DNA from: Apostichopus japonicus
Taxonomy: Eukaryota; Echinodermata; Holothuroidea; Aspidochirotida; Stichopodidae
DNA length: 64,000 bases
Reading direction: 5' to 3'
Assembly: GCF_037975245.1 (NCBI RefSeq)
Contig: NC_092576.1
Coordinates: 13,806,611 to 13,870,610, forward strand
In this document: positions 21,030-60,873 of the stretch, piece by piece
Layout of the letters: every line of letters starts with the position of its first letter
Numbering within the stretch: the first letter of the stretch is position 1
The notes under the pieces: generated by a model
What the model was told of the DNA's origin: nothing
Database searches by the model: none
The model's input: only the letters and a program-made list of their open reading frames with translations
Position numbers and translations under genes: made by a program

Positions 21030-23968
21030 TGGCTTTTATGAATATTTTCTGCTAATTCACTGAAAATATTGTTCTTACGGGATTAAACTACAAAGGCAAG
21101 TAACACACACTACATCATGCTAAATCCATTATATGATTCAATTTCAAAGGAAATGGAGAGCCCCAAGGTCCAATCTTTATCTCGACCCTACATATTACAT
21201 CGTGTGGATGACATAGTGTACTATATTGTCAGGTTTGTAGATATTGCTTGATTATCCAAGTGTCCACCTACCTAACTGAGCAAAAACTAGGTGGGGCGAT
21301 GTGAATTATTGAGGGGATGGGGATACCAAAGGGTAACACAGTAATATGCATTAGATTTATTATTCGTGGGTGGTGCCAAACAGGTTATGTGGGTGAAAAC
21401 ATTGAAAAATTTCTCTTACTCTTAAACTGATGGACTTCCAACTTGGCAGGGATTTGATCACATGGGATGGAGTATCTTTGTGACTAATGACGCCATCAGG
21501 TTAAAGTTCAGATCAAGGTAAAATCAACAGAAACGTAAAAGGTGCATATAGATAAAATTCTAAATACAGAAAACATCGAGGGCTGTGAGCAAATATTCCT
21601 AATATATCAAGAATATATGAACAACATTATTAAAATAGAAAAATAAGTGTTTGAAGATCCCCGGAGTGATAACATCACAGGGATAATATCCTTTCAATCA
21701 ATTAATTGCGTTACTCTTGAAAAAATAGAAACACCAAATGAGTCTCATTATCAATGTCTCTCTATATATATATGTTTCGCACGTGATTACAATTATAACA
21801 GCAAGCATGGCGAAACAGGGGAATAGACTGGAGCGAAAAACTTTACTAGGGTGCCGGGGAAATATGGTGTACTGAATAAATGGGATGTGTTCTTATTTCC
21901 ATAATATCACTAAGAATAAATGAAGAATTAAAGAAACATGAGAGGGTGTGGGAGTCCGGTGACATTAATATCCCTGCGACCCCACCTGGATTTATTCACC
22001 AATGGGTAAGAGTAGATTTCTATATATTTTAGACGTTTCAGCATCTCTTATGCTCAAAGCGTTTTACCCTCAGCTACCACCTCCCCCCCCCCCTCACCAT
22101 CACCCCCCTTGTTTTCGAAACTTCCTGTGTGCTCAACTGACACTGTTAACTTTTCTGAATGGTTTGGGGACTGAAACAGCTACTTGGGTTGAATTGGACA
22201 GAAATATGGCCATTGTTGATACATATTGCGTGCGAATATAGAGGACCTTCCAGCGAGTACAAGGTTGATAATATAAGGGGTTCAACACTCGTACTTTTTG
22301 CTTTAAGATGGTGAGAGCGTGCAAAAAGATTTATTCCATACTAACGGTATTTTCAGATAAGCTTATATCCTTACAATACAAAACTAATTTATATAAATAT
22401 TTAATACCATGCGAGCGTTACTATGATTATATTATTGCATTTTCTAGTGCGTTATAATCTATTAATACCATGTACGGTATGTGATAATTATGACGTTTTC
22501 TGATCATTCACACCTAGATACTCATCTCATATGTCCAATTTAAAGGCGTGAATATTCATACACAAGCAAAAAGGCACATTGCAATATCCAAGTCATCACA
22601 ACCATATTAACCCAATGTGGGTTGTACAAGGAAACTCAGGGGAACCAACAGTGGAACCACGTAGAATAACAGTGGTTCCCATACAAACAAAAACACGTGG
22701 GATAGTCATGGATATTACATGGATCCCACACGAGCAATCGTAGTTAAATGATGGATCGTTGAGGGTCCTGTGTTCGATTCTCAAATTCAACCAAATAGGC
22801 AGCCTACGTGTGGCCGACAAGGTAACTCATATAGGGCCTCCCTGGGTCAGTGTGGCCAACAGTTGTTGTACCTACACGGTTGTGCCCTCCTGGCCCATTT
22901 CTGACTGATATGGACATACCCAGATATGGCAATGTTGTGTCTTACGTATGATCGTTATAAGCTAGACATACTGGAATATTGATGGATGATATGTAGCTCC
23001 CATGTAAAATATTAGCGGTTTCTTTGTAGGACCCCGTTTGGGCTTAATAAAATGTTGGGTTTATATTTGTCACAAGTGGGCAAATGTAGGTAGGATACTT
23101 TATGGTCCTACACAATCCATATAAAATATGATAACACTTTTGGAATAATGTTGGCTGGTGTAGAGTTTATAAAAGTTTGAACTAGGCAACCCACTTTAGG
23201 ACTCTATTGTGCAATATCAATGGAACCTACAACATTTTGTCTGACTCAAAATGGGACTAATATGGTGAAATGTCATAATGATATCTATGCTTGAAAATAT
23301 TTTATTCATTTATTAATAATTTATCTTTTACTGCAAAAATTGTGTCGTAGAAAATTAGTATACCTTGCCTTGGTCCGTTTCAAATAAAGAGTTTAAATGT
23401 CGTATGAAGTTGTCTTCGTCCCTTTTTTATTTTAGCATATAAATCAGAAATATTATACGTAGGCGATTTTCTTTAGGACTTAATGAATCATAAACATATG
23501 TGTTGTATAGATATGGACGGTTTACTACTTCTGTGGCATTCATTCTGTTCAAGTGGTTTTGTACTGGTACCCTCATTAACTTGGTCGGTCGGCACGGCTC
23601 GGATCTCCAAGTCTGAAAGTTGCCAGTATACCATTAGTTCCTGAGCCATATTATTTTGGCTTTAAAATTATGGCTTTGAATATAAAGTATTTTAGAAAAT
23701 TAAAGAGGAGGGGCTGCTTATTATCGTTCCCTGAACAGGCTATACCCAATATGTTAACTGTAATAGTTACATATCAAAACGTCTGGGGGACTTGCCGACG
23801 ATGTTCAAATTTTTCCATGGTTCCACCAGGGATGTAAGAGATGGACATACAACATTTGAGCTTTCTTTAAAGTTTGGTTCGTGCCGAATACCGTTTTTGT
23901 TCCAATACTAATACCTAAATAGCACTCAAAACGGATTATGGTACAACGCGGTGCCTGTACGTTGTCTG

Positions 23969-24320
23969 CTAGATGTATAAGATGTGTGTGAAAGTCAGTT
24001 GGCCTGACGTTTCGATCACGCAAAAGAAGGTCTCGTAGATATCGTGGTCGTCGGTAGGCGATGGTGGGTTTTTCAGGGACGGCTCGTTAGAGTCTATTTG
24101 AAGTGAGGAGAATGTTGTGGTTGTTAGAGGTGATTTGCTGAAAAGGAGGAAGACTTTGGTGGAAAGTAACAACCAGGGGGAGCTTGTTGTCGCAATCTCG
24201 TCCCTTTTGTCCTTCACTGCCAAAGTAGATGATCTGGAAAGGGAGCGGACTCTCTGAATGGCTTCACGCACCCTTCTGGCACTATGGCCCCTGACAGTAA
24301 GGTGTTTTTCCAATTTAATT
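23969..24320 (-). pseudogene. Penelope-like element fragment, internally deleted (unit 1)
   Basis: The minus strand reads HSARRVREAIQRV and SRSSTLAVK, the linker between reverse transcriptase and GIY-YIG endonuclease seen again at 40780-41060, then jumps to IETSGQLTFTH, encoded by the 3' tail motif also found at 42010-42045. The GIY-YIG domain is deleted between these points and the frame is broken. The tail contains CGAAACGTCAGG, typical of Penelope-like termini. Confidence 0.75.
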
Positions 24321-27275
24321 TCTTATCAGTACAAACTATTTTTTTTAATAAAAAAAATTGACAGTCTTCTGTTAATGTGATGCCCATATGGATCAATCTC
24401 AAATAATACTTAAAGTAAATTTCACAGGCTTTACTAGTCAGCTTATTTTTTCCATCAATTTATCATCATGATACATTGTAGTTATACATGATGCACATTG
24501 CAAACGTTGTACCATGGGTGATTCATTAAAATGTGTATGTCTGAATGTCAGTTCAATCTTCCTTCTTTCAGAGAATATATCCTTTTTACTCTAGCTTTTT
24601 CTTTTGTTGTTACGTGACTGTTCATTGCAATTTTTTCAAATTATTCATCAGAATTTACTTATTTTTCAACACACAATATTTACAAAACACATTTGTCTGC
24701 GAGTGTTTGGTTTATTTTCCCTTCTTCATAGTGGAATAAATACGCCACACTGGAATAAGAAAAGAGACTTTAAAAAGAAAGAAAAAGGGTTTAGAAAGTT
24801 GTTGAATAACAGTCAACACCAATTGACTGTTATTAGTCACAACATTCAACAAGATACTTACAAGTTTATACAATAGAAAAGCAGTAGAGATTCCTGTTGT
24901 TTTTATCATTAAAGTTACAACAGGTTGAAACAAATTTCATTCGAATTTGCTGAACTAACGGCGAAAAATCAAATATGTAATTTCGATAAAACCCAAAATA
25001 ATTAATACCCTATTGTAAGACATTTATTTTGGTTCTCGTTTGTTAATCATAAGTGTCTGCATGTGTTAATATGAGAGTCTGTCACTATAGCTAATAATCA
25101 CCAGTGTAGTTTTCTTCATTCTAAAATTTGAATTATTATATTGAATTTTATTGGATTATTGTAATAGAATGACCTAATGTTAATCTACATTTTTCATTGC
25201 AAAATTGTTATCTCTGGAGTTATTTTGCATTGTTCACTTCAGTTATTCAGCAAGGATTTCCTAAAAATATATGACATTTGCATTCAGTGTTGTAGCCATA
25301 GTTAACATCATTTTGCGTGAAAAAAATCACCTAATATTATGTCATACATTGATATTAGTTATCTCATGCATTCTGTGTTGTAGCCATCTTTGACCTCCTT
25401 TGCATAAATAACCAAGCATATGGTCAAACACTAGAATTCTTCATTTCATGCATTTTATGATGTAACCACCAGGTACTTCACTTAATGTTAAAGAAACAGC
25501 CTACTGGTACATATTGGAATTCTTCATTTCATGCATATGTGTTGTAGCTATCTTTGGTCACCTTCGCATGAAAAGAAATCACCAAACCTACTGTGAAAGT
25601 CAATATTGAGAGTGACTTAAAATATGATATAGTCACCATTTAAATGTAATTTGTTTATTTAAATGCATACTGAAAGTGCCTCTATGCTTGGTATGTTAAA
25701 GATAATGTATGCACATTTAACAGTACAGTTAATAATTGAAACGGATATAACTGTCTGAAAAAATTACCCTTTAAGCATTGTTGTCTTATCATTCCAAGTA
25801 GCTGGAGTACCACTCAGTCTAGCACACTTACACTAGGACTTTTATGGCCTGCACTGACAATCCCATGTTCAAAGACATTCACATATTTATGAAGGACAAA
25901 AGGCATTGTAGTCAAAGCCTAACTGGTCTTGTGAAGCCAGATTCACTGATAAAACATTTTACCATTAGGTTTGCAGGTTAAGGAAAGCAAACTGAAAGCT
26001 GAAAATTCAAGATAAAATAAAGAAAATTATATAAAAGACAGAAGGAAACAACTGAGGCTCATATTTCGCTATTTTGTGTTACTATAAGATTTCAAGGCCA
26101 GAATTCTGCCTAAATTAAAATATTATATTGATGCAATCCTCTGTTTCAGGTATTGTTTAAAGTGAATTGTCACAAATTGGTATTGTCCTATATGAATAAT
26201 AGACCCATTCATTAATGGTTCATCCACCTGTCCTACTTTTGGATATTTGTAAATTCGCAATTAAAAATATTATGTAGCATCTTGCCATTCCAAACGCTTT
26301 GCATTCAATCTTCTCGGAATACATCACACAAGTAAAACCCTTTGTGTACGTTAATAAAATGTGACAATTAAATAGCATGTAAAGTATGTCTTCATTTGTG
26401 TTTGTGCTTTTGTAATCGTATGTAGATTATGTAGGAAACCATACGAAACAAGATGGGCAATGTAGTAATCACTTTGCAGTACTATTCCCCATCCTTGACT
26501 TTTTTTTACATTTAGACCGGAGTGGAATGTGTTTTTTCAAAAGTTTTAAACACTTCTCCCCATTTGGAACAAGTACTTTCAGCTTCATTGTTTGTTTTCC
26601 ATGATTGAACCCTCTACTATAGGAGAAGGGCTGTAAAGTTGTCCAATTTACCTTGGCTTTGTACTTAAGGAGAGGTGTTATGTAACACCCTCCCTTTTAA
26701 GTGGCTGACCTGTCCATTGAGGTCAATTTAGAAGCAGTCCTGGATATTTCCCTTATACCATTTATAAACTAAATGAACCTACTGCAAAACATATTCCTCT
26801 CTCTCTTAATCGCTGCCCTTACATATCCGTCACCCCCGGTATGCAGTGAACCAATGTATCTGTTTTGCAAATAGGGGAAGGTACGAAGCCTGTCCACCCA
26901 TTAACAGTGTTTGATATTTAATTTACTAATGTTACCCAATCCCAAAACACCTTCCCCTATCTCTTCGATCTCTACTCTTACCCATTCTTCATCTCCTGGT
27001 ATGCAGACCAAATGCATAATCAAATTAAGAGCTACCTCCCGTATTATTTGCATAGTTTTGTTACTTAATATACAACTGAAATAGACTTTGAAAACATTGA
27101 TGCGATATCTGATGACGATAAATATATTGGTTAACATACACCCCACTTTTTGGACAGTGAAGCCTTTCCTGTTGTTTTTATGCAATCAGCCGGAGGGGGT
27201 TTTCGCCCTACTTTTTTCTGCGTGACCTTTGCCTTGTCGTAAAAGTTAGTATTCCTAAAGCATTAACTATAAGTT

Positions 27276-33994
<6,719 letters not shown>

Positions 33995-35953: not shown

Positions 35954-36037
<84 letters not shown>

Positions 36038-37400
36038 AGAGGTGGAGGTGGGTGGCTGGGTGGAGAGAGAGAGGGGGGGGGGGGCGAGAGCATGTCGAGC
36101 CCAGAAGAGCTTGTCGTGGCATAGATACCCTAGCTGTGAAGATCAAGATAAAACAAATATAAACCTATTAAGCTTGCATATTTTTGAAGGTGCAACTGAT
36201 ATTGCCAAACACTAAAGTATCACGTATGCCTAGTTCAAAGTTTTAAGAAAAAATCTAGTAACGTTTTGCAGGTTTTCGGTAACCTCGTTGGAAATTGGTA
36301 GATCGAAGATGACGCGAAAAATAGCACTAGCATGCACAAAGTTCGTCTTGACAACGACACTGCAAGCATTGGTGCGAATTTGCGAGAAAACCAGGGCAAT
36401 ATAAAATAAAGCGTTGTGTCGGTCCGGTTCTTTGACAAATTTATGTAAACCGATTGTAAACCGGATATTTGGGCAACAAACGCTTCGTCCTTACTAAGAC
36501 TGGACAATACTGGATAGTCTAAATGCCTGTACTTTTGCAACTGGAAGAGCACTTCTGTCACGAACTTATACCGTGTAGAGTCAACAGAACCTGACATTAT
36601 GGAAATTTTATCCAATCGGATTTATAACTCCTTCAAACTTAACCATGGGCTTCGAGGAATAAGATCTCTGCAAAATGAACATACTTGCGAAGTTTGCACA
36701 AATAAGCTTTAAAGTTTTGACAGTTCCTGAGATCTTTTTTTGGTTCCCCAAGATGCATCATTCTCACCAATTCATGCAATACTGGTCTATTTAACATATC
36801 ATTGGATTTTTGTCACTCTATCAGTTCAAATGTTACATCAATTTGGCTGTTTGATATCATCCCGCTGATAGCAAAATTTAACCAGGTGCAGAAGGTTTTG
36901 TCGCATAAATGAGTATTTCGAACCTTTCACTGTTTTGCTTAATTTTCAATGTTTTATCAATAATAACAGTTTTTCTATTAACATTTAACTGTTTTCTATT
37001 AACGTGAATGGTATGTATATTGTGGTTGTGGTTTTCTAAGTTTAGCTCAGCTAAATGTGCAAAAGGTTTAGCTAAAATTGTTATTGCTCTTTATCCGTTT
37101 TATATAACTAATTGATATAACTATGTACAGCTTTTCTAGGATAACAGTTGCCGGATTACTATTTGAGCAATCGAGTGGAATAGAATACAATGCATCAATC
37201 ACTGTCGATTCCGAGCCATGTTTGAGTCCATTACACTCGACCCTGAGCCAAAATAAAAGTGTCTCGACTGTATGTGTAGCAACGAGGTTTCAGATGGCAT
37301 TCTGAAATAATAGACACAATAAGTTATTTCATACCGAACCAACGACAACTTCTATGTTTCAAGATTTGCATCGATTCTTGCCTTGTTTTGGCAGTTTCAG
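35173..37400. other. Stretch without a recognised gene
   Basis: Holds G-rich tracts (35670-35700, 36060-36085), an (AT)n tract (35956-36033) and an open minus-strand frame of about 112 codons from an internal ATG (36235-36597). I do not recognise this frame and treat it as doubtful. The end of the Penelope-like remnant may extend into the first 200 bp. Confidence 0.4.
35956..36033. repeat. (AT)n microsatellite
   Basis: About 78 bp of AT dinucleotides followed by a GA/G-rich tract. Confidence 0.95.
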
Positions 37401-37705
37401 AGACGATTGGCTGTAATTCTCTTCAGTGTCATGAATTAGGGGAGCCAGGAAGAATAGACTGTACGTTTGAAAATGATCTTTTTGGAATCTTTTGGTACAT
37501 TGGCACCAATACTCGAAATGAGTAACCAATTATTAACTACAAAAATTATGATAATGATTATGATAAAATTATGACGTAACTCAAGACGGCTGTCTTATTA
37601 TAAACGAAGTATCCGTGGTCCACGACTGCAACTTCACGGTTATAACGATGATGACGTCTGTTGATACAGACCCTACCTATAATTTTGTACGAATCATAGT
37701 TACTG
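37401..37705 (+). pseudogene. Ig-like domain exon 1 (broken)
   Basis: Starts after TTTCAG and ends at G|GTAAGT. Shows GRIDCTFENDLFGIFWYIG, the B-strand cysteine and C-strand tryptophan of an Ig fold, then a TAA stop near 37522. The second half reads QDGCLIINEVSVVHDCNFTV in another frame, so there is both a stop and a frameshift. Confidence 0.7.
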
Positions 37706-38119
37706 GTAAGTTTGTGTCACCGTTTCTTCATATCCTACTTATAGGGAAATGATTCCATCAAGCTCTCATATGCAAAATCAATTTGTTTTTGTATCAAACA
37801 AGGCAACCCATATTATTGAAAAATAGCATTACATTAAAGTAACTGAGACAACTTCAAAATAGTTTGTTTTCAGGACGTTTATATTTGAAAGCAACCATCT
37901 ATAACCAAATTTTCCATAGAAACAATTTTGCTTTCTTGCTAAAATGTTGCTTTCTCTGCACTATTCTTAATCATAACGTTGGTGTCATTCCTATAGTGAT
38001 ACCTATTTCGTACTAACGAAACAAAGCATATCAATGACGTTTTCATATAGTTTACTATGTTTCAATTGGTTATTATCATTAGCGTCTAATAATGTTTTAA
38101 ATATATTGTTTTTCTATAC

Positions 38120-38430
38120 ATTAGTGCTACCACGACAAAATAGACCGTTATCTCGCAATGTGGGAGGACTGGTGACTGCAATGTTAAGGGCAATCAAAAT
38201 GAAGAAATCAATAGCTATGTGTTTGAATGTCGTCCAGCTGTTTCACTCGAGTGGCTTGTCCGAACTATTGAGGGTGATACTACCCTCCAATTTGATATAA
38301 AAAAAAGTGATCGTTTAAAACGATTCCTTTACATCGCAAGGCTCGACAGTTGGCATAAAAACTGTTTCCCTTGAGATCTGTGTTGTTAGTTTGCAAGGCT
38401 GTGAATCCGCCACCCATACTGTAAGATACT
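38120..38430 (+). pseudogene. Ig-like domain exon 2 (broken)
   Basis: One frame reads YVFECRPAVSLEWLVRTIEG with the Ig cysteine and tryptophan spacing. A TAG lies just upstream near 38143 and the downstream half (SLEICVVSLQGC) is in another frame, so the exon is not functional as read. Confidence 0.55.
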
Positions 38431-38451
38431 GAATCTGCCATCTTGCTACAG

Positions 38452-38779
38452 AAGCTAGACAGTGATTCTTCTGCATTACGTAGCAAGCGCATTGTTAAAA
38501 GAGGAGCAGAGTTTAGTTTGGAATGCGCTTTAAAAAGATCGATATTCTTCACTTGGCAAGTGAAGCCATATGTTAGTAAAATGAAATATTTCGTTAAGGG
38601 TTTCTTAAAAGGAAACAACTTGACGACTTCTCATGCATATTATTACGATTACATCATTTCTCCAGATGGCACCCTCACATTTCTAATAGCGAAACATGAA
38701 TACGGGGGAGTGTACCGATGTCTTTCGGATGATGGACTTGGTACTGAAAATGTTTTCGAATATAATGTCACCATAATCG
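38452..38779 (+). pseudogene. Ig-like domain exon 3 (frame open)
   Basis: Best preserved Ig exon: acceptor TTGCTACAG, donor G|GTGAGT, frame open throughout. It shows AEFSLECALKRSIFFTW, then DGTLTFLIAKHEYGGVYRC, that is the two Ig cysteines, core tryptophan and the YxC motif. Confidence 0.8.
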
Positions 38780-39706
38780 GTGAGTATGTAGGTATAACAC
38801 TCTTCGAGCGTGCTGTAGGATTATCATATAAAGACTGCGTGTGACATTAACGGGATATAATCCAAATTACTAAAGCGGCGTCCAAATTTACCGCGAGAAG
38901 CCTATTCCTCACACCTACTGTGCCATGGGTCTTAATGTATTTATTATGACGTGATTACTATAATACTTTCGTTTCACATACAATACCACATTAATCTGAT
39001 TACGAGGAGTCTGGTTCATTTGCACTCTTAAAGGTTAAAAGGCTCATATCTCTAAGGCTGCAAATAAACCAGAGTCTTCAAGATACGGTAAATTGTCATA
39101 AGGCTCAAACTCCACGTTCATATCAGTACCAAAGCCAGGTACCAAAAGTGAAAGAGAAACTACGATTTATACAAATGCTTTATAGATAGATACTTGCTTG
39201 GCTTAAACCGAGATAAGTTAATGTAAACATGCAAGCAAATACTAGAAGGACAAACAATGCTACGTGATGATTAAGTGTGAACGACTTATGATTGCGATTT
39301 TACAAACTGTTTACAAGATATAGTATCGTTCAAAAAAGAATTGAAAATAATTTGTTCCATATCAATGTTGTCTATTGCCACTCTGTTATAAGCCGAACAG
39401 CTGTGAATAAAACTGTGATTACAAAAAGTCGTAAGGGTACGAACCTCAAATTAGCATAATGAACCAGCCCCTAAACATTTGATTAACTATTTTGGTTTAT
39501 ATTTAACGTCATGATTCGCCAGTGCACCACGTAAACAAGAAGAAATATATGACAAATGGTACATTTGAAATACAGTTTTCTAAACGTGAAGAAAAGGGTA
39601 GAAACTGTTTACACTAGCAGTTTTATTCGACTCATCGTGACTCGTTACAGCACTTCAGCAAATAGAGGTCTTCAGAAGTCAATAAAACTCACATAATTTT
39701 AAAGGA

Positions 39707-39938
39707 GTGTTAGCCCAGTGGTTTACACCGGTGCCTTTCAATCATAAGGTCCCCGGTTTGAGTCACTCCCAGATTAATCTATGTAGTCCAGTTGCAGAGT
39801 TGTTGACAATTAACAATTCATAATCATGGACGTTAAATATAATGTAAGAGACTGACTTCGGTCAGCTTGCGGCTTTGTTAAGACAATGGGGCTGCTTCGC
39901 GAGTTCCTGTTTGCAGGAGGATCTAATATACATACAAA
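39707..39938 (+). mobile_element. tRNA-derived SINE, family 2, copy 1
   Basis: A-box-like TAGCCCAGTGG (39711-39721) and a degenerate B-box GGTTTGAGTCA, then a body with GGACGTTAAAT and CTTCGGTCAGCTTGCGG, ending in GATCTAATATACATACA. Copies 2 and 3 share this body. It lies between Ig exons 3 and 4. Confidence 0.75.
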
Positions 39939-39984
39939 ACATCAATGCGTGATCACTAAAATTTAACATATTGCACATTTTCTA

Positions 39985-40325
39985 CTTTGCCACTCCATTG
40001 CCAAACTACCCAATTATCGAACGTTGCAATGGTGCAAGAAATTGTACTGTTCCAATACATGGTGGAGAAGTTCTAAAGTGTTCGGTGCATATGGCCAGAG
40101 GTACGACTGGAATAGCAGAAGTATCAGCAAACCTCGCCAATATTGTTTTCAGACCAAGGGATGACTGTCAAATGGTCCGGTGATTCTTATGATATTAATC
40201 AAGCTACTAAGATAAACTTATTCCATGCGAGTGAACAGTTTATTACGATTGGATGTTCTGTTACAGGACCAAACTCATCGTTTTTCGATATGCATTCAAC
40301 GACAAGTATTTTCATTTCGGATTGT
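39985..40325 (+). pseudogene. Ig-like domain exon 4 (frameshifted)
   Basis: First half reads GGEVLKCSVHMARG in one frame; second half reads MTVKWSGDSYDINQ and ITIGCSVTGPNSSFFD in another, giving cysteine, tryptophan and cysteine in Ig order but with a frameshift near 40150. The TTGTTTTCAG at 40143-40152 might instead be an acceptor starting the second half. Confidence 0.6.
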
Positions 40326-41477
40326 AAGCTATATATATTCATTTAAACCATTATCAAATATATATATGTTTAACATGCGGCTGGCTTGATGATAATGTCA
40401 CTGCGAGACATCAGTAAGGAGAGTGCTGTGCGCTCATCTCTTGGAAAGTTGTCGTGTATTCTGCAGAGAGGAGAGTTTGACTGGTTAGTCTCAGAGCCGA
40501 CGACTTGTGTGTAGGGTTTTAAAACAGGGACTCTGTTCTTTGGAGGCCTCCAAGAACTTTTCTTGTAGAAGGGTTCCCGTTCAGTTGGAGGATCATCTAG
40601 GAAAAACACACCAGTATCTCAATTCTTCACTAGTTGCCATCCACGCCAATGCAAGTCTGGAATTGCCTACAGTCAACCACTTCGTCTTCGTCGCATTTGC
40701 TCTAGCAATTCCTCTTTCATTCGCCATACAGATGCTTTGAAAAATACACCTTACTGTCAAGGGCCATAGTGCCAGAAGGGTGCGTGAAGCCATTCAGAGA
40801 GTCCGCTTCCTTTCCAGATCATCTACTTTGGCAGTGAAGAACAAAAAGGGACGAGATTGCGACAACAAGGTCCCCCTGGTTGTTACTTTCCACCCAAATC
40901 TTTCTCCTCTTCAGCAAATCACCTCTAACAACCACAACATTCTCCTCACTTCAAATAGACTCCAACGAGTTGTCCCTGAAAAACCCATCATCGCCTACAG
41001 ACGACCCAGCAACCTACGAGACCTTTGTTGTGCTGGCTGCTGTTCCACCTCTAACCTGTAAACTTACACCCATTCAGCATGGTACTTTCAAATGTGATCG
41101 TACTTCGAGATGCATCATCTGCAGCCACCACATCATACATCTGATCTCTTGTAGAGTTTGCAGCATCCAGTATTTTGGCGAGCCAAAACCAACCTCAAGA
41201 AGTGCATCTATGGTCACAGATCCACGTTTAACATCATGAAGACTGAGACCCTAGTTGGAAAACACTTTAACCTTTGCAACCATACTATTAACGACATGTC
41301 CTTACAGGAGATTGAATCCTTAGGTAGCCGTCCTGACCTAGTACGAATCAGCAGAGAGTGGCTGTGGATTCAACGCCTTCGAACCATTCAACCTCATGGG
41401 CTCAACATTCAGGAAGGACATGACTAACTTTTCTTTTGTCCCCTCCTTCTCCCCTTGTTCCCCCTCCCCATCACTAC

Positions 41478-41518
41478 TCTTCTCATCTTCTCTTCTCTTC
41501 TCTTCTCTTCTCTTCTCA
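41478..41518. repeat. (TCTTC)n simple repeat
   Basis: Pentameric pyrimidine repeat between the Penelope-like coding end and the nested SINE. Confidence 0.85.
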
Positions 41519-41520
41519 TA

Positions 41521-41720
41521 CAGGCGGAGTGTATAGCCTAGTGGTTAACGCCGGCGTCTCCCAGTCATGAGATCCCCGGTTCGATTCCCCGCCGACAGCA
41601 ATGTGTGTCGTCTGGCAAGGGTGTTGTTCAATAACAACTTCCTGACATGGACGTTAAATGGATGTGTGCCGAGATATTGGCTTCGGTCAGCTTGCGAGTC
41701 TATAAGCCTTCATGGCTTCT
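41521..41720 (+). mobile_element. tRNA-derived SINE, family 2, copy 2
   Basis: Well-preserved tRNA-like head: A-box TAGCCTAGTGG (41534-41544) and B-box GGTTCGATTCC (41579-41589), followed by GGACGTTAAAT and CTTCGGTCAGCTTGCG as in copies 1 and 3. Nested in the 3' part of a Penelope-like element. Confidence 0.85.
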
Positions 41721-43007
41721 TTCGCTTCCACCCTTTTTCTCCACACCTTTCTGTATTTGTCCTTCTCCAGTTTCTTCCCTAACCCATTTCCTTAATCCTC
41801 CCGTTGTCCCTCCTCTGTTTATCTCCTACCTCTCCTCTTCCCCTGTTGGTTTCTTTCTTTCTTCTCTCCATCCCTTGTCTACTAATCCCCTTACATCCAT
41901 CTGTATTGTGTTCACCATGATCATTAATCTGTCTGTATTCTGTGCGTGTTTTGGTACTTTCTGTTACTGTTACTTGTCATTTAGCCTTTGAGGAAGATCC
42001 TGCTAGGATCGAAACGTCAGGCCAACTTACTTTTACACATTCTCCTACACAGGCTCTCTAGTGGATAAGCAGTTTGCTTACAGTTTTATTTTATTTTGAT
42101 TACGCTCAGCATTAGTAAGTACTAGTTTAAGATCACGGAAATGTTGTGTTGATTCCAGTTTGTTGTTGTAATTAATGTATCACATCTTTAAATTGTTATT
42201 TTTCTTTAGGTTTATTCGATGACTGTTGACGAGAACTATTCAGCGGATCAGCAAAGAGGTAAATAAAACATGCAGCAACAACCGAACAAGTAGCATTTCA
42301 AACCAAATGATAAATGAATTTCCAAGCTAGGTGTAGCTTATTCTGTATATAAGAAACAGGTAAACGTGACAGATATGGTCATTAGAAGTTAAGGCGTAAC
42401 AAAGGTCAGTTACACATCCTTGAATTGTCCATTCATGCTAAATACTTACTTTAGATTCTTGAGGATATTAAACAGGAACTGAAACACACTTAATGTAGTT
42501 TCGGTAACAACATTGTTGAATATATGTCACTATCAATAGTCTTATTTCTTACCAGTATCCTCTCTTCCGCTGACAGAGAACAGGGAATGGTCAGCATAAT
42601 CATAGTTCTTAAGGGTAACTTCTTGAGAGTATTTGTAAATAATGATCACATGCTAGACATACATACCAGTAACAGTGTTGCCTTTGTCGTTCAAATAACT
42701 CTTCAGATGTCTTAAGATATCTTTTTTGACATGCGGCAAGCATGCACCAAGCCATGGCTTAAATTACTAAATTTACCCAATAAACGTTTGACATTTGTTG
42801 TTAAGTTTAACGATTGAAGACACGCAAACTTCCGTGGCATGTAACTGTAACGTTTAAGGGTAGTAGATGTAGTAACCAACTTTGCGTAAACAGGTGGGCA
42901 TTTTTTACCATTGTATTTAACAACTTTCCAAATTCCCAATAGAGTAGTAATTTAATGAGAAAGATAGGAAATTCACCTTGCCGTTTTGTGAAACTGTTTT
43001 ATTTCAG

Positions 43008-44424
43008 ACTTGGCTACTCTCTTTGTATCTGAATTTCAACGAAGATACGACTCCCTCTGTAAGGAGATACGACCAATTCCTAACATAAGAGATAACATGT
43101 TTTGCGTGAACGAACTACTCACTCATGGACAAATTGAAGCTTTGGATGTCGGCTCAGTTTCCAAAAGGGAAATAACTGGAAACCTATAGGTTCCTATCAG
43201 GACATTTTTGTGGAACAATCAAACCAAACTAAACTCCATGCTGTCCCTCCAGCTTGCCTATGAATGGTCCTTAAACACTGACTCGCCAATCTCTAAAAAA
43301 AAAATCGATATTCTTATTCTGCTAACGCTAAGACTAAGGCAACTAGGAAATATAAAATCATTGTTCCACGCGATTCGACGATTCATTTCCAAAAGACTCC
43401 GGTCTCCGAGAAAACGGGATTCAAGAAATTATGAAAAGTTCTAAATCTATCTTATTTATATTCGATGGCTATGATGAGTATCCTGGTGCAGGTAGAGTTG
43501 AGACTGATATTTTGCAAATAGTTAACAAAGAAATTTTCCAACAAGCATGCGTTATTGTAACCACGAGAAGATCAAAGCTTCGCGCTGTTTTGAATATCCA
43601 GGTTGGACGTTTCAGGTTGAAGGGTTTTGATACGATGGCTAGACAGTCGTACATACGCCAAGCAATTGCCGGAGATGACCTCGAACTTTGTAAGAAAATT
43701 AATGCAAAGCTCACAGAGAATCCTGTGTTTGAGGATCTCTGTGAGACTCCCCTTATATTTGCGATGTTTTCTCACATGATTGGCGAGTAAAAGAACTTTT
43801 CAACAATTACATCAGCAATATTTTTTTTAGATATATGGATTCTTGTTTTCACAACCATATGCGAAATAAATTAAATGACGAAAATGTTCCTATTTATAAA
43901 AAAAAAAGGGAGATCATGCCAAGGTAGATAAACTAGCCATTTAAGGAATTACACAAATGCCAATGCAAATTAGTTGGACAAAAAATGTTCCACCTTACAA
44001 CCAAAACATTGACACTGGTATCTTGTTAAAATGGAAAGTTATTCTTTACTGGAGTACCAAACTGAATTTATTCTGCGAGTGGTATGCTGCACATCATGTT
44101 GTGAGCAAATCATCAAAACGGTGCACAGCTTTTTTTTCAAAACAACTTCAGAATAGTGATGCAGATTACATTTACCGGTTTGCCTGTGGCTTGAATCGTT
44201 CTGCAGCTAAAAGTATTATACGAATCTCAAAAGACTTTGCTGATGGTCAGCAGCATTCAATATTATGTATTATGGAACAGCTTTACGCTGGAATATATGA
44301 TAATGTGCGTAAAGAAATAAAAGGACATAACATCTAATGCAGTTTACTTCCGGCAAGATGATAGTCGAATATTTCAAAGTTCAACTATTCAGCTTTTACA
44401 AAATGCATCATCGTTAAAGGTAAA
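43008..44424 (+). pseudogene. NACHT domain exon (STAND NTPase, NLR type), broken
   Basis: Acceptor TTTATTTCAG; last frame ends at AAG|GTAAAT. In order: a pre-NACHT segment (EFQRRYDSLCKEI) ended by TAG near 43190; LSLQLAYEWSLN, which normally follows the phosphate-binding loop; Walker B ILFIFDGYDEYPGAG (about 43446-43490); sensor 1 VIVTTRRSKL; the NACHT winged-helix region CETPLIFAMFSHM, followed by a stop at 43788; then EWYAAHHVV, YRFACGLN and SILCIMEQ. The Walker A GxxGxGKS/T is absent and at least three frameshifts or stops occur. It cannot make an active NTPase as read. Confidence 0.85.
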
Positions 44425-47780: not shown

Positions 47781-49020
47781 ATTCAATTCAATTCTTTATA
47801 TCCAGTATAAATCATTAAACATTTATAAATAGGAAAATAAATAAATAAAATTATGATAAAGATATAAAATAGTAAATACTAGACATAACACATCACAACA
47901 ATGGTTCTAAAGCACCATGCTGTATGAACATGGACGCCCTATAAACTAAAGAATTCCTATAAAGTTTAATCCTGAATCTGGGAGTTATGGCAGCATTCCT
48001 CAAATTGTAGTTTGTCTTATTGCACAGAGAGTTTATTGCACAATGGAGTGGGTGTCCTTCATTTCTATGGATGTTATTTAGTAACCTCTCAAATTCTTTC
48101 CTAGCAGCCGTATTAACTTTATCTTTAAGCAGGTTATGATTTAATCCAAAGATTCTCTCACAGTATCTCAGGAAACTTAATAATCTTTCCTTATCTTTCA
48201 TTTGGACAAAGTGATACCAGACCGGGACAGCACATATGATATTTGGCAAGATAGAGGCCTCAAACACCCTTTCCCGTATATGGACAGGAAAGTGAGGAGC
48301 AATATACATGAGTGTGGCGACAATGCTTGACGTCAGCTTGTTGTCGATGCAGACTCCTAGATACATTGTACTGGAAGTACGTTCAACGGATGTATTGTGA
48401 ATAATTGTCTTCTCATCTCTCTTCTCGATGAATCCCCTGTGCTTAATATTGATGTTTTCGAATACCATTTCCTTACACTTCTTTTTGTTGAGAAGTAGGT
48501 TCTTCTGGTCGCAGGTGCTAACTACGCTAGTGATAAAATCCTGATACTCATGCTGATTTTGCTGGTGGGAGCCTTTGATGATATTGCACGATAAAGCAGT
48601 GTCATCAGCATATTTAATTACTGAGCAATTAGAATTAGAGCGAATGCAATCTGTATAAATAGTAAACAATAGGGCTGATAGAGGGCCTCCTTGTGGAACT
48701 CCTACTCTGATTTCAGAAGTTGTTGTATAGCCTTTGTCTAGTTTAACTTGTCTTGACCATCCCTGCATGAAATCCCTAAGCCAATGAATGAGCCATGGCT
48801 CATCGATGAAGTTACACAGATCATTTAGTAGACGATTGGGCAGGACTGTATTAAATGCACTTGAAAAGTCCAGAAATAGGACTTTGGATATTGTCGTCTG
48901 TTTACAGTTTAGCCCAGACACTATGCCATGGACAAGGGTGAGGATTGCATCAGTGCACGAGATACCTTTTCTGTACGCAAACTGATTTGGATCATCATGC
49001 TCATGATCGTGATCATGATC
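47780..49020 (-). mobile_element. 5'-truncated non-LTR retrotransposon, CR1/Rex1-like reverse transcriptase
   Basis: An uninterrupted minus-strand frame runs from about 49015 to the stop at 47893. It shows DPNQFAYRKGISCTDAI, FLDFSSAFNTVLPNRLL, GVPQGGPLSALLFTIYTD, the catalytic KYADDTAL, and MYLGVCIDNKLT, in the order of CR1/Rex1-clade reverse transcriptases, with the usual C-terminal region after them. The endonuclease and the start of the reverse transcriptase are missing. The 3' untranslated end contains GAATTGAATTGAATT near 47790, a short repeated tail. The frame being open suggests a fairly young insertion. Clade assignment is from motif memory. Confidence 0.85.
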
Positions 49021-49026
49021 GTGAAA
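48990..49026. repeat. CATGATCGTGAT simple repeat
   Basis: Short near-palindromic repeat at the 5' truncation point of the CR1-like element; it reads HDHDHDHEH in frame with the reverse transcriptase, probably by chance. Confidence 0.6.
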
Positions 49027-49028
49027 CC

Positions 49029-49340
49029 ATGTCGTTTTTCGAAGATATTAAAGATCTGTTAATTAGTCTTCATGATTTTTCTCTACAAGGAAAAGAAACT
49101 AAAACAGAATTAGATAAGACAAAATATATTGTAATAGCTAAAGGACGTTCAGTAGAACTGTTATTTTTATGTGACAGCCTTCCAAATTCACTTTCCAAGA
49201 TGAGTAATGCAACTCCGATACTTTCAAACCAAGAAGAAAAGAAAATATTGAATAGGCTTGATATAATGATTGCCAAGTCATCGGAAGGCACGGGCAGTGA
49301 AAATGCAAAGGAAGTCACACGTCATTTGTTTGCAATGTAA
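49029..49340 (+). CDS. Unrecognised short open frame, possible exon
   Basis: From ATG 49029 a frame of 103 codons has ordinary amino acid composition and likely helices (MSFFEDIKDLLISLHDF, EEKKILNRLDIMIAKSSEG), ending in TAA. I recognise no domain. A second coding-like piece (RLSLKTAKKELECSSVD, DELLPRVNEQLIEIATNNV) lies at about 49805-50027. They might be exons of one gene, but I found no splice pair that joins them in phase. Confidence 0.3.
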   Translation: MSFFEDIKDLLISLHDFSLQGKETKTELDKTKYIVIAKGRSVELLFLCDSLPNSLSKMSNATPILSNQEEKKILNRLDIMIAKSSEGTGSENAKEVTRHLFAM

Positions 49341-53843: not shown

Positions 53844-56455
53844 ATGGTGTATGCACAAAAGTTTACAGCAGACGACATACACTTATACTTTACAGCAGAC
53901 GACCGTAGTGCAAGATTTGAAACGATGGCAAACCTTCATAGAGTTCGTGAAGCAATTACTCTTGGGTATTTAACAGATTTATTAGACGACGACGAATTCA
54001 TGTTGCTATACGATAACAACAAACCGTCAAACCCTGAATTCCAATATTATGATTACGACCCCTTCGATTTGGAAGATTATAACGATGATGAATGCAACGC
54101 ATACTTCAGGTTAGTGACGCAACTTAGGCTATGCATTAACGTTTAGTATTATATAGACTTAGGAATAGACCTAATTTCCGATGATTAAGTTGCACATAGG
54201 CATAGACTAACTCCATATATACTGTTATGGAGGTTTATAAAACATACCGTAATATTAATAAACCCAGTCTTGTTTAAAGACAGGCTGGATTACCTCCTAA
54301 TCGACACACAGATGTACCCTAGGCCTACAAATAAAAATATAGGCTAATGGGCATACATTAGACTTCGAACGTGACATCAGATTCACTGACTGTGACTGCA
54401 GTTGCTGGGGGCTTCTCAGCAGTCAGTCCTACACCAGGCCAGTAATACGACAGTTGTTTTAAGCCTTGTGCCGCCGGAATCACTGCGCACTGCAGGGTTA
54501 GGAACCATTTTGTAATGACGCAGTGTGCTTTACACTGTGGGTATGGATGCGTGCAATGTTTTCCTATTGGTTACTGGAACACAAAGCGTAAATTGTAATA
54601 TCAAAATTGAGATTCTGACAGGTCCCACCTGTGCAACCTTCAGGGGTTTTTCTTGTAATAAAAATCTCAATTCGAACTTTTATCTGATGTGGTAACCACT
54701 TCTGCGAAAAACACTAAATCATTTTATTTCCATGATTCTAATTAAGTGCAAAGCCTGCCATGTTTTTAAATAATACACCCCTTACGTCATGAAAAAAAGG
54801 GTTGATATTGAAATATTGCTTAACTTTATTCATCTTCGCTTTTTAGGTTCAAGAAAGATGATCTCTATAGATTGAAAGATGCACTTCAAATCCCGGAGAG
54901 AATCAAATGTACAAATGGATACCGTGTCCAAGGATTGGAGGCCATATGCATTTTGCTATCACGATTTGCATATCCATGTAGGTAAATATTTTCAACTTAT
55001 GCCTTACCAAAGACTTTAAAATAGAACTTGCTGCCGTCTCGTTTTTTGCCAAGCATATGAGACAGGAATAGGATGCCATGGGACGGCATCTTAAACCGTC
55101 AACACTATACAAACATTCAACTTATGTGTAGGCCTATGCTGAAGTTTCGTCATCACTGTTGTACTTTACCCATTGATGTATGCATGGTTTTCCTTTAATA
55201 TATAAATTTAAATGTAGGACCACCATTAGGCATTAAAAAACTAGAGCACCAATGGTGCAGTAGCTCATACCTTTTAGGGCACCCCAAAAATTATGGACAA
55301 AAATATATTAGGGCCCAAACATTTTTAGGGCACCAATTTTTTATGGGCCACAAAAAATGTTTAGGACCCACAATTTTTTTTAGCCCACTTGACCTTTTTT
55401 ATCAAAAAAACTTTTCTGCAATTGTTGATGGGATTGTAGGGTTTGCTTGTGACCACTTTTGATATGGATAGTGACAGATGACACATCACTACAAAAGCTC
55501 ATACTAGAATGCTGGTGTGAGCTATAAATTAGTTGCCAGGTCTGTCATATGAAGAAATTGTGAGTTGTGAAAAAAAATTGTATGGAATCACAAGGGACAT
55601 GTGTGTTTTTTTCTTTGCTGTATTGGTGTCCTAAGATTCCACCTTTCTCATTTGTAGTGACCCGCAATTTCTTTAGTATTTTATCTCTTCTCTGGCAGGT
55701 ATGGGGATATGGTGAAGACTTTTGCCAGAGATGTACCACAGCTCTGCACAATTTCCACACACATGATTAACTTTGTGTACAGCGAACATTCATATCTTGT
55801 GGAAACTTTGAACAGGTTCTGGCTCTCCTCAGAACATCTTATGAGATATGCATCAGCCATTCATGCCAAAGGAGCCGCACTGAAAAACTGTTGGGGGTTT
55901 GTAGATGGTACAGTCCGTCCAATTTGCAGACCGAAAGAGTACCAGAGGTTATGTTACAATGGTCACAAGAGGGTACATGCATTGAAGTACCAATCTGTTA
56001 CAGCTGCCAATGGTCTAGTTGCCAATCTTTTTGGGCCTATAGAGGGAAGGCGACATGATTGTTTCCTCTTGCGAGAGTCTGGCCTCTTGACTGAATTGGA
56101 ACATAGGTCATATGATACACTGGGGAATACTTTATGTATTTATGGTGACCCTGCATATCCATTGAGGGCCCACTTACAAGGCCCCTTCAAAGGTAACCTA
56201 ACAAATGACCAAAAGCTGTACAACCATTCAATGAGTAGTGTGAGAGTTTCAGTCGAGTGGGTATTTGGGGACATGATTAATTTCTTCAAATCAACAGATT
56301 TCAAAAAGAATCAAAAAATGGGACTTTCAGCCTGTGGTAAAATGTACATAGTTTCAGGCATACTTACCAATGCACATACTTGCTTATATGGTAACTCAAC
56401 ATCAAAATTTTTTGAATTGGAGCCACCCACATTAGAGCAATATTTTCAAAGGTAA
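53844..56455 (+). CDS. PIF/Harbinger DDE transposase (HARBI1-like nuclease)
   Basis: Three exons, 53844-54109, 54847-54981 and 55699-56455, join in phase at GT-AG introns to 385 codons. Exon 1 is acidic (LLDDDEF, FDLEDYNDDEC). Exon 2 (FKKDDLYRLKDALQIP, LEAICILLSRFAYPCR) matches the N-terminal helical, DNA-binding part of HARBI1-like proteins. Exon 3 holds the nuclease: GFVDGTVRPICRP with the first aspartate, EGRRHDCFLL, YGDPAYPLRAHLQGPF with the second aspartate, and SSVRVSVEWVFGD with the glutamate. No stops or frameshifts. In this superfamily the nuclease works with the element's Myb-like protein, which brings it to the ends and the nucleus. The first ATG could instead be MANLHRV at 53925. 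Confidence 0.93.
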
Positions 56456-57490: not shown

Positions 57491-60400
57491 TTATTGTTTA
57501 TTATTACCCTTCATCGATTGCATGAACATCATTAGCATGTTTTGCATCTGCTGCTGTTGTTGTGCGAGGTGTTGCTGCATTGGTTGTTGTTGCTGCATAA
57601 ATTGTTGCTGTGTCTGCTGTTGCTGTTGTTGAAAGAGTTCAAATCGTCGATCTCTTTCAGCTTCGTCCCTCTTCACCTCTGCTCTTCTCATGGCGAGCTC
57701 TTCCTTCCTCATCTCTCTTTCCAACTCCATCTTTTGATGCAAAAACTGAAGAGCATCACTCCCACTGTTTCTTTTTCTTGGCATATTTTCTTTATCTGCA
57801 AAATGCCTATGACAAAACAAGATAAAGGTACATCATGAATTTCTTCAATATGACAGACCTGGCAACCAATTTTTGAGACAGAATGAATCCATGCAATCAT
57901 GCTTGTGTGTGTGCACATGTGTTTATCTGTATGTATGTGACACTGCTTGTAAACAAAAGATGCAGGGTTCAACCCCTGTAATACTTTGCAAATTCAGCTG
58001 AGGTCAAATATTGAAAACTTTTTTTCTGAATACCGGTATACCAACCAACCAACCCCATTTGAGGTAATATGAGTCTCTCACCTCTTCCTTGTCTCCACAA
58101 ACGATTCACAGGCCCTCTTCTGGACCTCTTGTCCATCGAGGCGCCTCTGCTCCTCTTCACTAGCATTGGTCTTGGGGAGAAGCTCTGCATCATCTTCTTG
58201 GTTGGCCAAGTCTTCCAGAAGCACCCTCAACTCCCTTTGGCTTTCCGTTTCCTCAGGGCTAATGCCTGAAGCCCTCTTATCTTGAGAGTTGTTCTTCTGC
58301 ACCTTATTCTTGAGGCTGTTGTACCTATGATTAGAATGAAAAACCAAATTAGGAATGTATTGAATCGAAAGAATAAGTGAATCGCCAAGAGGAACCCATC
58401 CCATAAAAAAAGTCCCTGGTCAAAAGGTAAACAAACCCTCTGATTGGCTCAAAAGATAACAATCTCTTTCTGGCCACGCCCCCTATATATCTTGTACACT
58501 TTTAACAATGAATATTCATGACCTACGGGAAAAAAAAACCAATGATGCAATCAAAGAATCCAGACGGGTCTACCCTTGCGATACGTGCTAAACATCACCT
58601 ACGTCTCGTCTCGCACTTGTCTGTACATGAAACGGAACCACTGAAATTACTGGGGTTAAACCAAATTATAGTCTTAAGTTAAGAAATTGTCGTGAAAATG
58701 GAAGGCAACTATGTTCGTCTTGGTACAAACACAAACTTATGAGGGCTCTGAGGGCTATATGAGGGTTGTGAGCTACATGACAGTACAGTATATAGGAAAG
58801 AATGCAATAGAAGGTAAAAAGTGAAACATAAATTACATAGGAACCACCAGCACCACCAATTGAAATCCCAATTTTTTGGGAAAATGTAATTATTTAGTAT
58901 GCTGGGAGGATTTTTCTTTTTCCTCTACGGTATTGTAGAGCATGAATTTAGCTTCTAACCTCCTTAACATACCTGTCTCTGACAGCCCTTTGGTCCACCT
59001 TAAAGGACTGTTTTCTCAATTCGGTGGCCACTCCAGACCACACCTTGCCTCTTTCTAGACTGCCCCTTCGGAACTGAAATGGGTTTTGCAAGGCAACTTC
59101 CTTGCAAAGAATTATATCTTTTGCCTCTGTCCATTTCATGAAAGTCCTGAAATAGATTTAGAAGTGTATTTTGAGATTTATTTAATATTATATTACAGCC
59201 CAATAGAGATCAATTTTAACTTGATTTCTCGAAAACAAAATGTCTGATATGCATCAAACCTATAAGTATTCTTTATCTTTGTCAAAAATTAGAATGGTTC
59301 TTTCCTTGTTTTTCATTACAAAATCCTCAAAGCTGGTCCAATTTTCTGACAATCATAGATGAACCATCTTACTGTAGATTTTGCTGGAAATCATTTCTAG
59401 CATACCTCTATCAGTGCATAGCACACACACAACATTTGAGCTCTAAACTTATTTATTTTTAAAATATGGTACTCTGATTTTGTTTCTCAAACAGGAATAT
59501 GTCATATTTATGATGGTAAATGGGGTTGTATTTCCAATGGTAGAAAACATTGGAAAAATGTAAGAAATAAACACAGTCTGCTTGTTTACAAAAAAGCATA
59601 AAAAATCCATACAAGACTATTAGACAATCCATACAAAACAGTACTGCATGTAGCAGTTACATTTACCTGATTCTGTTTACTTTATCGTTGATATCGCATG
59701 TCAACATTGATTAGGTGCTATAAAATTGAATTTTGGGACCAGTCATGTGCGGTTGAGTGGCCAGTACAGCCTTTCAACAATTAATAAAAATCCACACACT
59801 TGTTTTTCATAACCATTACAACCCTGGAGCGTAAACACAAATACTTTTTTTAATTGAAAATCTATCATAATTGGTAATTATGTATGTATATTAGATCCAC
59901 CTGCAAGCAGGAACTCACGAAAAAGCCTCATTGGCTTATCAAAGCCGCAAGCTGACCGAAGTCAGTGTCTTACATTCATATTAAAGTCCATGATTATGAA
60001 TTGTTAATTGTCAACAACTCTGTAACTGGACGACATACACTAATCTTGGAGTGACTTGAACCGGGGACCTTATGATTGAAAGGCACCGGCGTTAACCACT
60101 GAGCTAACACTCCACTTATACCTGCTGCTACTACTAGGTTTCTTTATTGAGGAACTTGAACCCACTGAAGCTTCATTACTATCTGAGTTGACAGCAGGCT
60201 GTTGAAATATGATGGAAAAAATCAATCAAAATATAGTAACTCAAAGCAAAATATCCTCTGATATACAGTATGTCACAGTGGATTTGTACGCAATGTATAT
60301 AAAAGATTGTGATGTTTCACTAATTTCGAGCAATCAAACACTCTAAATTATGCACAATCTTTTCTGCAGCAGAATTCTTCTATTTTAAGAGAAGCTAATC

Positions 60401-60873
60401 ATATAATACGAAAGAACAGGCATCAATCGTAAGTTGTGTTTTAAGCCAGGCTGATTCCATAATGGTGTTTAACAACCCAAATACAGTATGCATTATTGGC
60501 AAAAATAAGTTGGTTTTTGAGGTGGTATAGCCTTTGCCCCATATTTTGCGGGATGATTTTATAGCTGACCTAGTACATGATTGCTTGTAAACGGTAGTGT
60601 GAGGGCTGACCCACTACACTCAGCCAGCTATGCCTAGGTCCTAGTTTAGGCCAGATGTTAAATTGTATGTTAGGCTGCCGCTACTTCAACTTGTCGATGT
60701 GAAAGTCTGTAGTGTAACCACCCAACAACAGTCAGAATTGAGGAGTATAATTAGTATACACACTGGCAGTACGTAAATTCCGAGCCATTTTATACTTAAA
60801 CGTCAAATTTGGAATAGAAATACCAAGAACTTACTGAATTTGTAAGCTCGACTAGCCCAAATTGTTCGTCCAT
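57491..60873 (-). CDS. Harbinger Myb/SANT-like accessory protein
   Basis: Five minus-strand exons, 60873-60835, 60198-60122, 59146-58973, 58324-58082 and 57806-57491, join in phase to 282 codons. Start ATG 60873 gives MDEQFGLVELTNS. Exon 2 is serine-rich. Exon 3 holds the Myb/SANT-like domain (TFMKWTEAKDIILCKEVA, RGKVWSGVATELRK, VDQRAVRDR) completed by YNSLKNK in exon 4. Exon 4 is acidic, and exon 5 has a basic/acidic coiled coil (MELEREMRKEELAMRRAEVK) and a glutamine-rich C-terminus. This is the usual second protein of PIF/Harbinger elements, thought to bind the element's ends and carry the transposase. No stop or frameshift is seen. It is convergent with the transposase gene, 1.0 kb apart. 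Confidence 0.9.
59882..60114 (-). mobile_element. tRNA-derived SINE, family 2, copy 3
   Basis: The minus strand reads the A-box-like TTAGCTCAGTGG, a B-box region GGTTCAAGTCA, then GGACTTTAAT, CTTCGGTCAGCTTGCGG and GATCTAATATACATACA, matching copies 1 and 2. It begins about 7 nt inside intron 2 of the Myb-like gene, next to the GTATAAG donor. Confidence 0.85.

Follow-up and report, generated by a model that had tools for sequence, protein, structure and literature searches.

A dead gene on the plus strand of this Apostichopus japonicus DNA is probably a pseudogene of a membrane receptor with Ig domains, a transmembrane segment and a NACHT domain, a receptor of the AjNLRC4 kind. The window analyzed is the whole stretch of 64 kb, and positions are counted from its first letter. 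Within 37401–44419, Ig-like blocks, a short exon and a NACHT exon remnant follow one another on the plus strand, the one-strand layout that the first-pass annotation had described. We favor the Ig–transmembrane–NACHT reading because the NACHT domain is recognized by Pfam, one Ig-like piece carries a characteristic residue pattern, splice donors stand at the block ends and the short exon joins the NACHT exon in frame. It is further favored because, of the 1886 bases between the last Ig-like block and the short exon, 1303 form a stretch with repeat matches at its limits, and because the order of domains is that published for AjNLRC4. The reading is weakened because no Ig-like piece reaches a Pfam Ig cut-off, no transmembrane exon is established and the phases of the last Ig-like block and the short exon do not agree.

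The NACHT Exon

The NACHT exon remnant extends from 43008 to 44419 (+), is about 1.4 kb long and is entered in phase 1. Pfam PF05729 matches the plus strand at 43356–43787 (E = 1.8e-11). The score is 44.6 bits where the cut-off stands at 26.7, and the match spans profile positions 65–164 of 167. When the same piece was compared with PDB sequences by phmmer, 22 were returned up to E = 1, the best at E = 0.0025, and 21 of the 22 are named as NLRs (NLRP3, NLRC4, NLRP2 or a cut-off NLRP name). As a domain prediction, the NACHT identity of 43356–43787 is certain, and the long NACHT exon proposed earlier is borne out by both the Pfam match and the NLR names.

The exon is heavily damaged. Each frame across it contains 22–24 stops, so that an intact reading frame is absent. 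A motif scan for the P-loop (Walker A) found neither GxxxxGK[ST] nor GK[ST] in the three frames of 42259–44419. The upstream blocks, described in the next section as A, BC and D, also carry lesions, as follows: frame changes are needed to read through all three, block A has an in-frame stop, and no acceptor is seen at block D. The copy is dead, and no such protein is made from it; the earlier call of a dead copy is confirmed by these lesions together.

Relatives of the NACHT piece were sought in three collections. None was found by tblastn in phage records, and neither the 3 pattern matches in viral contigs nor the 42 in genome_contigs were confirmed, these being collections that may omit the window's own genome. 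Inside the window, a possible second NACHT copy at 60669–60818 (E = 0.018, 54 residues, the frame being interrupted by a stop) was taken as a chance match, so the window shows no second member of the birth-and-death family suggested earlier. For the other pieces, blastn and tblastn searches of the 64-kb window gave E = 0.31 or worse outside the pieces themselves.

The Ig-like Blocks

Upstream of the NACHT exon, the plus strand contains four Ig-like pieces spread over three exon-like blocks. Block A (37401–37705, +) is an Ig-like piece that starts and ends in phase 1 in the frames read; it has a frame change in addition to its stop. Block BC (38125–38779, +) consists of two pieces. Its first half, piece B (38125–38448, +), is Ig-like by eye alone and includes frame changes. 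Its second half, piece C (about 38449–38781, +), is an open frame with the arrangement C...W...G.Y.C and a GTGAGT donor in phase 1. Block D (about 39986–40323, +, start uncertain) is Ig-like by eye, has a frame change and ends at a GTAAGC donor, again in phase 1.

Piece C carries most of the weight. Once piece C had been seen, a pattern was devised for it, C-x(8-16)-W-x(30-75)-G.Y.C within an open frame. Across all six frames of the 64-kb window this pattern matches a single time, at piece C itself, and it is found in none of 60 dinucleotide shuffles. A version of the pattern with looser residues matches once in the window and five times over the 60 shuffles.

Profile and sequence comparisons are less definite. 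For piece C, Pfam returns Ig_3 alone, at E = 0.27 and below the cut-off, and the longer frame around it (38425–38841) gives no Pfam row at E ≤ 1. No Ig family is found by Pfam in A, B or D, whether they are searched as five separate pieces (A1, A2, B2, D1 and D2) or read through; B2 and D2 give sub-threshold rows for non-Ig families. The phmmer comparison of piece C with the PDB, taken up to E = 10, gave 12 sequences, of which 10 are contactins, KIT, MuSK or LRRC4, the best of these at E = 0.086. Contactins, KIT, MuSK and LRRC4 are Ig-domain proteins. An enzyme heads the list (E = 0.034), and a fluorescent protein ranks third (E = 0.16). By the same method, block A returned zero rows, and block D returned seven, namely three antibody heavy chains and four unrelated proteins. 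An AlphaFold model of piece C from its single sequence has a mean pLDDT of 32.6 and is unusable.

To summarize, an Ig-type cysteine/tryptophan pattern beyond chance is present in one piece of the four, piece C, and none of the four reaches a Pfam Ig cut-off. The first-pass annotation spoke of at least four Ig-like exons. By eye that description is fair, and statistics back one of the four pieces: the four pieces are there and C has its pattern, but they occupy three blocks rather than four exons, and no Pfam cut-off is reached.

Exon Borders and Phases

Donors of the form GTRAGY occur 36 times on the plus strand of the window, and blocks A, BC and D each end at one of the 36. Between 36901 and 46500 there are seven, the same three among them. 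All three are in phase 1 in the frames read. For three 15-base windows each to hold such a donor, the rough chance is 6e-7, a figure to be read with the fact that the windows were picked after the sites had been seen. The donor rule, the short-exon rule given below and the motif rule for piece C were all set post hoc, once the sites were known.

A phase of 1-1 is usual for Ig exons. Blocks A and BC both begin at an AG acceptor in phase 1. At block D there is no AG at the expected place, the last one before 40010 being at 39918. Hence, the splice-like borders claimed for the Ig-like exons hold for the strong donors of all three blocks and for the AG acceptors of A and BC, but not for the acceptor side of D.

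Between block D and the NACHT exon lies a short exon of 49 bp (42210–42258, +). It is open in one frame only, is entered in phase 0 and left in phase 1, and splices to the NACHT exon in frame (phase 1 to phase 1). Under the rule of a pyrimidine-rich acceptor and an AG|GTRA donor 30–80 bp apart, it is the sole acceptor/donor pair on the plus strand of the window.

Block D exits in phase 1 and the short exon is entered in phase 0, so the chain as it stands is incomplete. It follows that, if the locus is a single gene, at least one exon of phase 1-0 is missing between them. Such an exon would be the natural place for a transmembrane segment. We infer that the Ig-like blocks, the short exon and the NACHT exon are all parts of one gene. 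The link between the two halves had been drawn from order alone in the first-pass annotation; the exon phases and the in-frame short exon now add support to it, whereas the phase gap leaves the chain broken at one point.

The Gap between Block D and the Short Exon

The gap measures 1886 bases. As judged by blastn and tblastn within the window, 1303 of them make up a repeat-bounded stretch, and 521 have direct matches. The stretch, 40737–42039 (+), has interspersed-repeat matches at both edges and one inside, and for the rest of it no match was found in the window. At the left edge, 40737–41025 is 92.7% identical to 24027–24313 and 30409–30695 on the opposite strand. At the right edge, 42007–42039 matches the same elements, which extend over 23985–24313 and 30367–30695 and are presumably Penelope-like. 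Inside the stretch, 41526–41724 is 73% identical to a short repeat at 59918–60113.

That short interspersed repeat is also represented by 39704–39939 and 59878–60113, which are 90% identical to each other; the segment at 41526–41724, between the Ig array and the NACHT exon, is its weaker third copy (73%).

Hydrophobic segments were sought as runs of 21 residues with a mean hydropathy of 1.9 or more in the regions 36000–37399 and 40324–43008. Between block D and the NACHT exon there are three, at 41428, 41831 and 41887, all inside 40737–42039 and outside the directly matched bases. The plus strand of the 64 kb has 37 such segments in all, a background rate that three in 2.7 kb exceeds somewhat. 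In view of the repeat-bounded location and of this background, the three were not accepted as a transmembrane helix, and no transmembrane exon between the Ig array and NACHT is established by the scan. One of the three could be the remnant of such a helix. A hydrophobic stretch at 36909, upstream of block A, was not taken as a signal peptide.

One Receptor Gene or Two Genes

A reading in which two unrelated dead genes stand one behind the other on the same strand, the first for an Ig-domain receptor and the second for an ordinary cytosolic NLR, has to be weighed against the single receptor pseudogene, and we regard it as unlikely. The disagreement in phase where block D should meet the short exon speaks for two genes, and so do the lack of an established transmembrane exon and the gap of 1886 bases, of which just 521 are directly repeat-matched. 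Yet everything lies on one strand within about 7 kb, and most of the distance (1303 of the 1886 bases) is bounded by repeat matches. Moreover, the short exon calls for a 5′ neighbor ending in phase 0, a role that an exon between the Ig array and NACHT could fill, and the joined Ig–NACHT design is known in sea cucumbers, as the available part of the AjNLRC4 report describes (PMC8699970).

It is quite improbable that the NACHT pseudogene alone is real and that the upstream blocks are other exons or chance open frames rather than Ig: Pfam shows no Ig family in A, B and D and, for C, Ig_3 alone and below the cut-off, a non-Ig protein ranks first among the PDB rows for C and its structure prediction is of no use (pLDDT 32.6), but the donors at three block ends share the phase 1 usual for Ig exons in the frames read, the pattern of C is absent from 60 shuffles, and 10 of the 12 PDB rows for C, all weak, are Ig-domain proteins by name.

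We therefore return to the pseudogene of an Ig–transmembrane–NACHT receptor. On this model, an intact relative would work as follows, its function being borrowed from the AjNLRC4 paper (PMC8699970). The Ig domains would lie outside the cell and bind microbes. A helix, its exon lying between those for Ig and NACHT, would cross the membrane. The NACHT domain, inside the cell, would oligomerize and recruit the cytoskeleton for uptake.

Tentatively, the locus may point to Ig–NACHT membrane receptors that form a sub-family of their own, with an ectodomain longer than that of AjNLRC4 (four Ig-like domains rather than two). Phase-1 Ig exons might be gained and lost in such a sub-family under birth-and-death evolution, which would make the ectodomains diverse and leave the NACHT exon in place. 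This extension of the model is a possibility that we rate well below the receptor pseudogene itself.

By itself, a dead copy adds little. If the receptor reading is true, the Ig–NACHT kind of gene has lost members, and the locus offers a map of exons and phases: Ig blocks of 1-1, an expected exon of 1-0, the 49-bp exon of 0-1 and the 1.4-kb NACHT exon. That map could help to find intact relatives, and it could serve to ask if the Ig part is exchanged among copies.

Other Features of the Window

The window contains a head-to-tail duplication of about 6.4 kb (21022–27408 and 27400–33790) at 99.86% identity; either the segment was duplicated in tandem very recently or the second copy is an artefact of the assembly. 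Two type I hammerhead ribozymes (Rfam RF00163), barely over the gathering score, are found on opposite strands at 7653–7694 (−) and 7844–7885 (+). An exon-like open frame at 2843–3154 (−) resembles glutamate carboxypeptidase II (PDB phmmer E = 1.8e-8). At 17944–18219 (−), there is an open frame with a stretch like a membrane anchor, which may be the first exon of the same carboxypeptidase-like gene; this assignment was made by eye, with no Pfam match above cut-off.

Mobile-element domains are found 3′ of the NACHT exon. A 384-aa open frame at 47896–49047 (−) has a reverse transcriptase domain (Pfam RVT_1, E = 1.7e-21), and a 264-aa open frame at 55661–56452 (+) has a DDE_Tnp_4 transposase domain (E = 3.9e-21).

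Comparison with Known Ig–NACHT and Membrane NLR Systems

One comparison is with sponge NLRs that have transmembrane domains. These NACHT proteins are suggested to be membrane-bound, and the available part of the report states no combination of Ig and NACHT (PMC12909245). The portion of PMC11797021 at hand likewise holds nothing on such a combination. Another is with the holothurian Chiridota heheva, in which 6 of 53 NLRs are described, in the accessible text, as having "other domains, including" V-set (PMC8913654). The likeness is that of NACHT with an Ig V-set domain in a holothurian (PMC8913654).

In A. japonicus itself, AjNLR-new (PIK48001.1) is described as combining Ig, transmembrane and NACHT parts in reverse topology, with NACHT outside and Ig inside, and the available part of the paper speaks of "genes" so built (PMC13133943). 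Compared by description, AjNLR-new and the locus would have the Ig/NACHT combination in common if the Ig reading of the blocks is right; AjNLR-new differs in being intact and in its topology, which is opposite (PMC13133943).

The main comparison is with AjNLRC4 of A. japonicus. According to the part of the 2021 paper that was available, it has an Ig-like domain at residues 31–132, an Ig domain at 251–353, a transmembrane helix at 483–503, NACHT at 600–757 and a second transmembrane helix at 776–795 (PMC8699970). Its Ig domains are extracellular and its NACHT domain is intracellular. The Ig part of AjNLRC4 binds microbes, and the protein acts by way of beta-actin and the Arp2/3 complex to promote phagocytosis (PMC8699970). 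The authors stated that, to their knowledge, both domains in one protein had previously been unreported (PMC8699970).

The locus differs from AjNLRC4 in having four Ig-like pieces rather than two Ig domains and in being dead, whereas AjNLRC4 is intact and expressed; the two transmembrane helices of AjNLRC4 are without an established counterpart here (PMC8699970). The two are alike, on domain layout alone, in that the N-terminal Ig-like domains of AjNLRC4 are followed by NACHT, as the putative Ig-like pieces are at the locus (PMC8699970). The first-pass annotation had considered Ig outside and NACHT inside to be an unusual receptor design. The design exists and has been tested in Apostichopus japonicus, but it is already in print, as far as the available parts of both papers go (PMC8699970, PMC13133943). 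That is, the Ig–transmembrane–NACHT design is plausible and real, and it is not new.
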